DNA from: Dehalococcoidia bacterium
GTDB taxonomy: Bacteria > Chloroflexota > Dehalococcoidia > Lucifugimonadales > UBA1127
Assembly: GCA_029936935.1 (NCBI GenBank)
Contig: JAPYRQ010000017.1
Location: 1-37,451, forward strand
Direction: 5' to 3'
Length of the DNA: 37,451 nt
A model generated the notes under the pieces. The model did no database searches. It worked only from the letters and a program-made list of their open reading frames with translations, and was not told the origin of the DNA. Of this stretch, positions 13,892 through 17,648 are shown in pieces. Both the position numbers and the translations under genes were made by a program. The stretch's first letter is position 1. The number at the start of each line of letters is the position of its first letter.

Positions 13892-13947
13892 CTATTCTGC
13901 CTCTCGAACCTGTTCGTCAAGTTGTAACCTTTCATTTGTCGGGGGCA

Positions 13948-14044
13948 CTCTTTTTAGCCGGGGACACGTCCCCCGGAACCCCATTGGTCCGTTATGCCGG
14001 GAACACATTTCCCAGATCCCTTTGCCAGAGGGGAACCCCTCTGG
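13948..14044 (+). repeat. Multi-hairpin repeat element, copy 1 (nuoL-nuoM gap)
   Basis: The element begins TTTTTAGCCGGGGACACGTC and contains three hairpins: CCGGGGA-CACG-TCCCC (13958-13973), GGGAA-CACAT-TTCCC (13999-14013) and CCAGAGGG-GAAC-CCCTCTGG (14025-14044). The first 35 bases match the copy at 16320-16388 almost exactly (core GGGGACACGTCCCCCGG identical). The second hairpin has the same CACAT loop but different stem bases. Confidence 0.7.
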
Positions 14045-14074
14045 ACTCCCCAAACGAGCTGGGCCCGTAACTTA

Positions 14075-14093: not shown

Positions 14094-16100
14094 TTATCGA
14101 ATGAGATATATCAACAGCATGATTACCGCACCAGCGGTGAACACGCTTCCGTATGCCTGAACCTGTCCGTTTTGTATTGCCGCAATCCCGCGGCCGATAT
14201 TGCGCCCAACCCAGCCGATGTTGTCGGACACGCCGTCTACAAACACCCTATCGAACCAGTCCAGCAGGCCAGCGCCGTATCGATAGAAGACCTGACCGAC
14301 GATGAACCTCTCATACAGGTCGTCCATGTAGTACTTGCGCATGGTCAGTTGGTAGAGTGGCTTGAACGTCAAACGCTCAGGAGCAATCTTGCCCGCCGCG
14401 TAGGTGGCCCAGGCCAACCCCACTCCTGTCAGTGCAAGGATGATGGAGAGAATCGCCACCCACCCGATGAACTCAGGCGTCTCCGCGTGACCCAACGGCG
14501 CTACAAGGAACTCGCTAATCCAGTGCTTGGGGATGGTAAACAGCTTGAATGGCGCGTTTGCAACAAACCCAGACACCACCGCCAGCACAGCCAAAGCGCC
14601 CATAGGTAGAATCATCACCAATGGCGATTCAGCCATGTGGGCGTGACCGCCTTCCGCTATTTTCTCTTCTTCGTCGGCGGTCAGCACCATCTCGCTATCA
14701 GGCAATGCAACAGCTTCAGCCTTCTTTTCAACGCCGCCACGGAACTCACCGTGGAAGGTCATGAACAACGCCCGGAAGATATAGAACGCCGTCATGAAGG
14801 CCGCAGCCATCGCGAGGACGAACACCAATCGACTCACGAAGTCACCGTTGTGGAACGCCTCTGCCAGAATCTCGTCCTTGCTCCAGAACCCTGCAAGCGG
14901 GAATATCCCCGCCAGGCTTAACGATGCAACGACAAACATGCCGTAGGTCCAGGGCTGCACCTTGCGGAGGCCACCCATGAATCGCATATCGAAGGTGCCA
15001 ACCACGTGGTTGACACTACCGGCGCCCAGGAAGAGCAGCGCCTTGAAAAACGCATGGTTGAACAGATGGAACACCGCAGCGGTGTACGCGCCGATTCCCA
15101 GGGCCAGCATCATGTAGCCAAGCTGGCTGATGGTGGAGTAGGCCACCACACGCTTGATGTCGTTGCTGGTCATTGCCATCGTCGCGGCAAAGACCGTCGT
15201 GATACCGCCAGTGATGGCCACCAAGTTCATCGCGGATTCAGATCCCTCGAACACCGGGAACATCCTGGCGACCAGGAACACGCCCGCCGCGACCATTGTT
15301 GCCGCATGGATGAGCGCACTGACGGGGGTTGGGCCCTCCATCGCGTCGGGTAACCAGACATGCAACGGGAACTGGGCCGATTTACCCACAGCGCCGGCAA
15401 AGAACCCTATGGCCAACCAGGTAAGCGCCGTTGTGCCGAGCAAGCCAGCTCCGGCAGCTACGTAAATGTCGTTGATATTGAAAGAGTTCAAACCTGAGTT
15501 GCTAAAGACGTCCTGATGGAAGAAGAGGTACAGAATCGCGATGAGGAAACCTAAATCGCCAAGTCGCGTAACCAGGAACGCCTTCATGGCCGCTCGTGCC
15601 GCCGAGGGCCTGTGGTACCAGAACCCGATGAGCAGGTACGACGAGAGGCCTACAAGCTCCCAGAACACGAACATCTGCAGGATGCTGCTAGCGAGTACCA
15701 GTCCCAACATGGAAGCGGTGAAAAGCGACATGTAGGCGTAGTAGCGGGCATATCCGGCATCGCCCTTCATGTATGCCTGGGAATAGACCTGGACTGCCAG
15801 ACTGACACCCGTGACCACCACCAGCATGATGGCTGTCAGGGAGTTCATCAAGATGCCGATGCGTATCTCAAGGTTCCCAACAGTCAGCCATTCATGGGAG
15901 TCATAACCGATAGCCTGATCGTGACCGGTAGTCGACTTCAATGCCCAGAGCGACAGGGCGAAGGCACCGCCGATTGCGCCGATGGTGAGATAACCCGCCA
16001 GCTCACTTCGGTTGTTCAGGAACGGGCGTATCACCAGGGCAATAAGAACAAAGGACGCCATTGGTAGGAAGAAGATAGCCCAGGCAGCTGATTCCCACAT
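14094..16100 (-). CDS. nuoL: NADH-quinone oxidoreductase subunit L
   Basis: NuoL is the distal antiporter-like proton-pumping subunit of complex I and carries the long lateral helix. The 668-residue protein has the conserved helix-5 Glu in FVFWELVGLSSYLLIGFW, the proton-channel loop KSAQFPLHVWLPDAMEGPTP, and SALIHAATMVAAGVFLVAR. A charged loop (ADEEEKIAEGGHAHM, about residue 470) precedes the final helices. The ATG has AGGA 9 bases upstream and lies one base after the stop of the 64-codon gene, indicating translational coupling to that foreign-looking neighbour. Two repeat elements follow its 3' end. Confidence 0.96.
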   Translation of the reverse strand: MWESAAWAIFFLPMASFVLIALVIRPFLNNRSELAGYLTIGAIGGAFALSLWALKSTTGHDQAIGYDSHEWLTVGNLEIRIGILMNSLTAIMLVVVTGVSLAVQVYSQAYMKGDAGYARYYAYMSLFTASMLGLVLASSILQMFVFWELVGLSSYLLIGFWYHRPSAARAAMKAFLVTRLGDLGFLIAILYLFFHQDVFSNSGLNSFNINDIYVAAGAGLLGTTALTWLAIGFFAGAVGKSAQFPLHVWLPDAMEGPTPVSALIHAATMVAAGVFLVARMFPVFEGSESAMNLVAITGGITTVFAATMAMTSNDIKRVVAYSTISQLGYMMLALGIGAYTAAVFHLFNHAFFKALLFLGAGSVNHVVGTFDMRFMGGLRKVQPWTYGMFVVASLSLAGIFPLAGFWSKDEILAEAFHNGDFVSRLVFVLAMAAAFMTAFYIFRALFMTFHGEFRGGVEKKAEAVALPDSEMVLTADEEEKIAEGGHAHMAESPLVMILPMGALAVLAVVSGFVANAPFKLFTIPKHWISEFLVAPLGHAETPEFIGWVAILSIILALTGVGLAWATYAAGKIAPERLTFKPLYQLTMRKYYMDDLYERFIVGQVFYRYGAGLLDWFDRVFVDGVSDNIGWVGRNIGRGIAAIQNGQVQAYGSVFTAGAVIMLLIYLIR

Positions 16101-16101
16101 A

Positions 16102-16296
16102 CTACAGCTTCCTCAGTATCTCTTCGGCCACGTGTTCACGGCCTTTGGGTACGTAGACAATGAATGGAACGGTCTCACTCCAACTCAAGATATCGCCTTC
16201 CGGCAGGATACGGCTGGGCAGACCTTCAGACTCGAAGGTATCCTTCCACATCTCTGCCATCATCAGGCTTGGAACTTTTTTGAACTCAACCCACAT
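16102..16296 (-). CDS. Small DUF2007-like protein between the methyltransferase and nuoL
   Basis: This 64-residue protein begins MWVEFKKVPSLMMAEMWKD and ends in a charged helix (GREHVAEEILRKL). The pattern (MW-x-V/F-x-x-V-x-x-x-x-x-A-x-x-W-K/R plus a short beta-rich centre) resembles the DUF2007 'putative signal transducing' mini-proteins. I judge this by eye only and have not confirmed it. The ORF is supported by AGGA 4 bases before its ATG and by one-base spacing to nuoL. It has no membrane segment and no cysteine. Role unknown; its place inside the nuo operon suggests co-expression with complex I. Confidence 0.65.
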   Translation of the reverse strand: MWVEFKKVPSLMMAEMWKDTFESEGLPSRILPEGDILSWSETVPFIVYVPKGREHVAEEILRKL

Positions 16297-16319
16297 AGTG
16301 TCCTTTTAGCTTGACCGGG

Positions 16320-16388
16320 TCTTTTTTAACTGGGGACACGTCCCCCGGGAGCCCCCTTTGGCCTGCCCTAATTGGAAGCACATCTTCC
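16320..16388 (+). repeat. Multi-hairpin repeat element, copy 2 (downstream of methyltransferase gene)
   Basis: The element begins TTTTTTAACTGGGGACACGT and has two hairpins: GGGGA-CACG-TCCCC (16332-16345) and GGAAG-CACAT-CTTCC (16374-16388). It matches copy 1 at 13948-14013 in order, spacing and loop sequence. The stem bases of hairpin 2 differ in compensating pairs. It lies directly after the inserted methyltransferase gene. Confidence 0.7.
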
Positions 16389-16407
16389 ATCGTCACTTGG
16401 GGCGCTT

Positions 16408-17277
16408 TCATGCAAAATAGCCAGCACAATACAAAATCGCAACACTGACACTCGCCTCGGGGTCATAAACCGTTAGCTCTTCAATTTTCAAACCATGCGA
16501 TTTAAGTTTGACTTGGTAAGAATGGTTAAACGCCATACGTCCCCTTCTAGTTGAACGTTCCGCGTTTTTAAATCTGAATATACTCAGGTCGACCGGCTCA
16601 ATGAATGCCAGGGCTTTTGCACCACAGCTCTCAACTTTTCTAATAAACGTGTCAAGCTCTTCTTCCACGAAGTACTCGGCCGTCCCGCAGGTAAACACCA
16701 AATCTGGGCGCACTTCCTCAAGAATATCGGAAGTCAGGATGTCCGCAGCCATGAACTTCATGTTGGTTTGGGAGCTAAAACGTTCCGTGTTCTGCTCTAA
16801 GGTGTGCTCGTTCAAATCAACACCACAAAGAGTTACAGAGGACTCCACCTTCGGTAGTAAGGCCCAAAGATCTGCGCCTCCGGCACATCCAACCTGGAGT
16901 ATTGAAGTTGCACCCACTGAGGATGCCACAGTTGATATCCAATCCATCTCTCGATTCCGAGCTACCTCTCTTGTATCATGATCCACCCGATCATGGTACA
17001 AATCACACCATGTATCTCCCGCTTCGTGGTTGCCAACAATCCCGGTTCGATTCTTGGGTACATTCAAATAGAACAGAAAGTCTAAGAAAAAAGACCGAAA
17101 GCTTGCTTCAACCAACCCTGTAGGTTTCCCCGACAACAAACGCATCATATATACTTCTTTGCGAAATCCTGCCGCGTACGCTATAGCTCCCGGTGTCCAA
17201 ATAATCAGAACGACCAACGGTTTGACCGTGTACCGTATGATTGGCAAATTCAAAAACGCTCTAACCAATTTCTTCAT
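16408..17277 (-). CDS. Class I SAM-dependent methyltransferase-like protein inserted in the nuo operon
   Basis: The 289-residue protein has a Rossmann-type methyltransferase core in its C-terminal two thirds: motif I ILQVGCAGGADLWALL (about residue 127), motif II CGVDLNEHTLEQN, a motif near MAADILTSDI and motif IV PDLVFTCGTAEYF. The N-terminus is hydrophobic and basic (about 40 residues), perhaps a membrane-associated segment. The substrate is unknown. Lines I counted in the gene are 38-47% GC against about 63% in a nuoL line, and it separates nuoK from nuoL where the operon is normally continuous. Both facts suggest transfer. The ATG has only a weak ribosome site. It resembles methyltransferases of surface-polysaccharide loci in general form, but this is a guess. 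Confidence 0.75.
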   Translation of the reverse strand: MKKLVRAFLNLPIIRYTVKPLVVLIIWTPGAIAYAAGFRKEVYMMRLLSGKPTGLVEASFRSFFLDFLFYLNVPKNRTGIVGNHEAGDTWCDLYHDRVDHDTREVARNREMDWISTVASSVGATSILQVGCAGGADLWALLPKVESSVTLCGVDLNEHTLEQNTERFSSQTNMKFMAADILTSDILEEVRPDLVFTCGTAEYFVEEELDTFIRKVESCGAKALAFIEPVDLSIFRFKNAERSTRRGRMAFNHSYQVKLKSHGLKIEELTVYDPEASVSVAILYCAGYFA

Positions 17278-17312
17278 TAAATCTCATGGATCCAGTACAA
17301 GTTAATTTCTGC

Positions 17313-17648
17313 CTAGTGGTTCATGATGTTGGCTTCGCCGACTTCCACAGACCCCTGGTTTCGATACATGGTGATGACGATTGCCAGCCCAAGAGCTACC
17401 TCGGCGGCAGCGACCGTCACAATGAACAGAGCAAAGACCTGCCCCGTTAGCAACAGGTCCACGTTGTCGGCTGTCAGGCCGAAGGGCGTCGTGTACCGGG
17501 CCACACCCACCACGGCCACGTTGACCGCATTGAACAGAATCTCGATGGACATCAGCACCGCGATGGCGTTACGCCTTGTCAGCGAGCCGTACAGCCCTAT
17601 GGCAAAGAGCACGGCTGAAAGGATGAGGAAGTGTTCCAGTCCTATCAT
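17313..17648 (-). CDS. nuoK: NADH-quinone oxidoreductase subunit K
   Basis: NuoK is a small complex I membrane subunit (MrpC-like) with two essential acidic residues in membrane helices. The 111-residue protein has three helices and the signatures LMSIEILFNAVNVA (conserved Glu) and VAAAEVALGLAIVI (second conserved Glu). Its ATG directly follows the nuoJ stop, with GGGGGAG as a strong ribosome site inside the end of nuoJ. It is the last nuo gene before the inserted methyltransferase gene. Confidence 0.96.
   Translation of the reverse strand: MIGLEHFLILSAVLFAIGLYGSLTRRNAIAVLMSIEILFNAVNVAVVGVARYTTPFGLTADNVDLLLTGQVFALFIVTVAAAEVALGLAIVITMYRNQGSVEVGEANIMNH

Follow-up and report, generated by a model that had tools for sequence, protein, structure and literature searches.

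A lineage-specific methyltransferase insertion next to a conserved 64-residue protein gene between nuoK and nuoL of a Dehalococcoidia complex I operon

The DNA analysed here is a single contig of 37,451 nucleotides (the window) from a draft genome of a marine, SAR202-type member of the Dehalococcoidia (2.05 Mb in 105 contigs). Between nuoK and nuoL the window contains two open reading frames, encoding proteins of 289 and 64 residues. Both lie on the minus strand exactly as described in an earlier note made from the sequence, and the ORF coordinates agree with its statement that the stop codon of the 64-codon gene is one base from the ATG of nuoL. The elements of the junction, in order from nuoK, are:

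17313–17648, minus strand: nuoK, the upstream flank (Pfam PF00420, 1.9e-25)
16408–17277, minus strand: inserted, AT-rich gene for a predicted class I SAM-dependent methyltransferase of 289 residues (ORF; Pfam PF13649, 2.1e-8)
16388–17312, no strand: stretch that has no equivalent in G003, the sister genome, and is apparently inserted or replacing other sequence (DNA alignment)
16323–16387, no strand: two hairpin units left over from a palindromic repeat array that G003 carries in the same spacer
16102–16296, minus strand: gene for a 64-residue DUF2007-like protein, a conserved ancestral member of the nuo operon
14094–16100, minus strand: nuoL, the downstream flank (Pfam PF00361, 1.4e-75)
13930–14066, no strand: more complete repeat of the palindromic family found at 16323–16387, located between nuoL and nuoM

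The two genes differ in composition. The methyltransferase coding sequence has a GC content of 46.2% and a GC3 of 47.6%, compared with means of 57.8% (SD 2.4) and 69.0% (SD 5.2) for the 31 other coding sequences of the window, corresponding to z values of −4.9 and −4.1. The contrast with the surrounding nuo genes that had been drawn from hand counts is thus real, although the range of 38–47% given for it sets the upper value slightly low (60-bp lines span 37 to 57%). The 64-codon gene has 50.8% GC but a GC3 of 63%, which is close to its neighbours. Because its GC3 is near the local norm, this gene is not clearly foreign in composition, and the case made from low GC holds for the methyltransferase alone.

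The methyltransferase gene is confined to this genome among those searched. It is absent from all four genus-mates, from 392 further genomes of the class (searched at 1e-8), from 399 further genomes of the phylum (at 1e-6) and from all 80 named nuoK–nuoL loci; among 60 relatives, just two others carry weak local matches, with ~30% identity over fewer than 100 residues. The distance from nuoK to the 64-codon gene tells the same story: it is mostly shorter than 50 bp in 56 genomes, and measures 1019 bp here versus 43, 78, 40 and 215 bp in the genus-mates. These comparisons show that in this genome alone the spacer downstream of nuoK holds a ~925-bp AT-rich segment with a single intact methyltransferase gene. 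They bear out the suggestion of the earlier note that the gene was inserted into the operon, and identify the insertion as recent, lineage-specific and on the operon's sense strand. With a single carrier genome, gain and loss are formally symmetric, and the gene could in principle be an old operon member lost from every sampled relative. We give this reading almost no credence, since every genus-mate, order-mate and class-mate searched would have to have lost the gene, in the face of a foreign composition and of a flanking repeat array, common to the sister genome, that predates the insertion.

Invasion of this spacer is rare. In HRbin23 (Bacterium HR23, G058; L146, L069 500–958) the spacer between nuoK and the DUF2007-like gene contains an unrelated 152-codon ORF, an independent insertion. 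In another relative, G017, the same spacer holds ~1 kb with no recognisable gene.

The edges of the insert are defined by alignment to G003, which matches the window on both flanks at 84–85% DNA identity. The 215-bp spacer of G003 is filled with palindromic units. In the window the array starts at ~16323 and runs through a second hairpin to 16387, after which similarity is absent until the end of nuoK. The 22-nt hairpin block that precedes the left breakpoint agrees with the G003 spacer at 19 of 22 positions, a score reached by none of 2000 shuffles. Since the array is shared with G003 and similarity ends after the second hairpin, the segment at ~16388–17312 is later than the repeats and replaced the rest of the array. 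Misjoining of the segment into the operon during assembly of the metagenome-derived genome (MAG) must be weighed here, given a draft of 105 contigs in which repeats, which can mislead assemblers, adjoin one breakpoint. We consider such an artefact quite improbable: the nuo synteny with the sister on both sides of the insert argues against a contig-end chimera or misassembled join, as two independent misjoins would be needed and the repeat is present on one side only. In the population sampled by the MAG, the insertion could conceivably be a minority strain variant.

The repeats in the two window spacers (13930–14066 and 16323–16387) belong to a dispersed two-hairpin palindromic family of ~55–60 bp with the consensus TATGCCGGGGGCACATCCCCCGGAACCCCTTGCCAGAGGGGAACCCCTCTGGACTCCCC (copies in L076–L105). 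The present genome has 23 matches, its sister 12 and three other members of the genus none. The array was rejected as a known RNA, as it has no Rfam match and the window copies fold no better than shuffled sequences.

The ends of the insert lack a target-site duplication and terminal inverted repeats of at least 7 nt, and no integrase, transposase or recombinase ORF lies within it. A phage search with the methyltransferase gave no matches; a single viral hit (L066) proved spurious, falling in an unrelated 1349-residue structural-type protein. The insert shows none of these marks of a transposon, integron cassette or prophage, and we rejected transposition of the methyltransferase driven by the repeats, for which terminal repeats and target duplication are lacking. 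The gene would have arrived by horizontal transfer, entering a spacer permissive for insertions. It is probably transcribed by read-through of the nuo operon, because it lies on the same strand and no sigma-70-like promoter was found nearby.

By sequence, the 289-residue protein is a class I SAM-dependent methyltransferase of a generic kind, and methyl transfer is its predicted activity. Its methyltransferase-like character, noted earlier from the sequence, is confirmed by matches to Pfam Methyltransf_25 (PF13649; 35.1 bits against a curated cut-off of 27, E = 2.1e-8) and Methyltransf_12 (PF08242; 34.3 bits against 30). Like these families, it has a SAM-binding core with a VGCAGG motif; it differs in having no equivalog-level match, an unplaced subfamily and an N-terminal extension of ~100 residues. 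The N-terminus is hydrophobic, as had been remarked, and borderline as a membrane span (best 19-residue Kyte–Doolittle mean 1.72, residues 20–38). Membrane association could follow from this, and the feature gives no pointer to complex I. A single-sequence structure model had a pLDDT of 33 and was discarded.

An exact-peptide scan of 85k species genomes found no close homologs of the methyltransferase. The sole homolog found in plasmids is WP_260519412 of Aliiroseovarius sp. M344, with 28% identity over 51% of the protein. The two share EYFxEExL and EPVD motifs, but the homolog belongs to another phylum, replicon and context, and the N-terminal region cannot be aligned. Its neighbourhood on the plasmid includes an NRPS/PKS gene, an aminotransferase and IS elements.

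The note had raised the idea that the inserted enzyme modifies complex I or its quinone. Under this reading the methyltransferase was recruited to the operon for such a task, either as an assembly factor or subunit-modifying enzyme in the manner of NDUFAF7/MidA or as a quinone methyltransferase. Its operon position and strand, its hydrophobic N-terminus and a faint UbiE match (PF01209, E = 0.068) are compatible with this. However, the UbiE score of 12.9 bits is below the cut-off of 20.1, that for the NCBIfam model TIGR01934 is far below (12.8 against 158 bits), and the MidA/NDUFAF7 family (Methyltransf_28) gives no match up to E = 1 in Pfam. Another contig of the same genome has a full-length UbiE/MenG-type gene (E = 5.1e-53), as does each of the four genus-mates, and the same operon runs without the methyltransferase in all relatives. 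We regard a role on complex I or quinone as highly improbable. The database search proposed earlier thus places the protein in a generic class I family and outside the quinone and complex I families. As the UbiE/MenG cut-offs are not reached and the genome has its own gene of this type elsewhere, the substrate is most likely unrelated to complex I, and would be a small molecule or glycoconjugate. Of the options raised in the note, a passenger that is neutral for respiration is the best supported: we most likely see here an unremarkable case of horizontal gene acquisition at an uncommon site.

The 64-codon gene has a different history. It is present in 57 of 60 relatives; in all 56 genomes where it shares a contig with nuoK, it follows that gene in the same orientation. 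Of 80 named loci, 79 have nuoK upstream of it and 79 have nuoL downstream; a contig edge and an undetected nuoL account for the exceptions. The arrangement nuoJ–nuoK–X–nuoL recurs in another order-mate and in five further lineages of the class (L186–L191); a weak match at phylum level (L192) is found without nuo neighbours. An identical protein is encoded in the closest named record, a MAG of an uncultured Dehalococcoidia bacterium (CAJWXP010000042.1, isolate ERR599008_bin.23), matching G003, and most of the other relatives are labelled as SAR202 cluster, Dehalococcoidia or Chloroflexi. The gene is therefore an old member of the SAR202/Dehalococcoidia nuo operon, and the ancestral order is shown to be nuoJ, nuoK, the 64-residue DUF2007-like gene and nuoL. 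In the earlier note this mini-gene was grouped with the methyltransferase as part of one insertion. Comparison of the junction in related genomes separates the two: the methyltransferase is private, as expected of an insertion, whereas the mini-gene occupies the same position across the order and in further class lineages, with a GC3 near that of its neighbours, which for this gene is the finding that the note had said would contradict an insertion.

Presence of the gene follows the type of nuo operon. Elsewhere in the genome lies another, divergent nuo operon (L199, G000 contig C70) with no such gene between nuoK and nuoL. The gene is missing from the five operons of this second type that were examined, located in this genome, G003, G005, G043 and G046. 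The last three are the three relatives that lack the 64-residue gene altogether, and they have only the second nuo type.

Selection on the gene acts on its protein product. Between the window and G003 there are eight synonymous and no nonsynonymous codon changes, and in close pairs the amino-acid divergence of the 64-residue protein is usually below that of NuoL. An alignment of 42 sequences has 23 invariant columns across the protein. Over 81 sequences, synonymous sites vary to the same extent as in nuoK and nuoL, so the constraint is at the protein level, and we rejected an additional constraint on the RNA, an idea prompted by the 96% DNA identity to G003 (84% for nuoL). These data bear on the view that the gene survives solely as a leader cistron bringing ribosomes to nuoL, with a protein that has no role of its own. 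The stop and start codons one base apart are consistent with this view, and the last codons include a possible ribosome-binding region for nuoL (GAGG ~10 nt before its ATG). We consider it unlikely, as residues are conserved along the whole protein, synonymous sites are as free as in nuoK and nuoL, and the protein is modelled as a compact, confident fold. The junction would couple translation of the 64-codon gene to that of nuoL.

The family to which the protein belongs is suggested by its relatives. Weak matches to DUF2007 (PF09413, described as a putative prokaryotic signal transducing protein) were obtained for the 64-residue proteins of 12 of 17 relatives, with a best E-value of 4.3e-5; the window's own protein has no DUF2007 match in Pfam. 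AlphaFold, supplied with 42 sequences, predicts a β-α-β-β-α fold with a pLDDT of 95.9. A Foldseek search with this model returned 2HFV, which we take to be the NMR structure of a DUF2007 protein, with a probability of 0.98, a TM-score of 0.68 and E = 0.13, where other ferredoxin-like folds score alike. The weak matches of the relatives and the 2HFV-like predicted fold tentatively place the protein near DUF2007. It differs from that family in being a single domain with a nearly invariant VPxGREHVA[ED]EILRKL tail and in its fixed location between nuoK and nuoL.

From its place, co-occurrence and conservation, our best guess is that the protein is soluble and serves the type-1 complex I in a peripheral accessory or regulatory role. 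Bacterial complex I can have such accessory subunits, as in Thermus, where Nqo15 and Nqo16 are each ~130 residues long. The likeness to these, by description, is in the idea of a small lineage-specific peripheral protein; the present protein has 64 residues and its gene lies inside the operon, between K and L. Our literature search found no link of complex I with DUF2007 or with an inserted methyltransferase. We propose, with somewhat less than even confidence, that throughout SAR202/Dehalococcoidia the 64-residue protein belongs to just one of two complex I types, as an accessory or regulatory subunit that has so far gone undescribed. If so, this would be the first functional setting for the DUF2007 family, giving a family of unknown function a testable role. 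The conserved gene, apparently an unremarked operon member, is of greater interest than the methyltransferase: abundant ocean bacteria keep a tiny, nearly unchanging gene in one of their two complex I operons, which provides a concrete candidate for a complex I partner. Taken jointly, we find it quite probable that the ancestral operon contained the 64-residue gene, that the methyltransferase is a foreign passenger, and that the small protein has an accessory or regulatory function for one complex I type.

A further observation concerns the DNA of the 64-codon gene, which is 96% identical to that of the sister genome (16102–16296 versus L072 4732–4926), compared with 84–85% for nuoL and nuoK. 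This pattern is not general among other pairs, and possibly reflects local recombination or chance.
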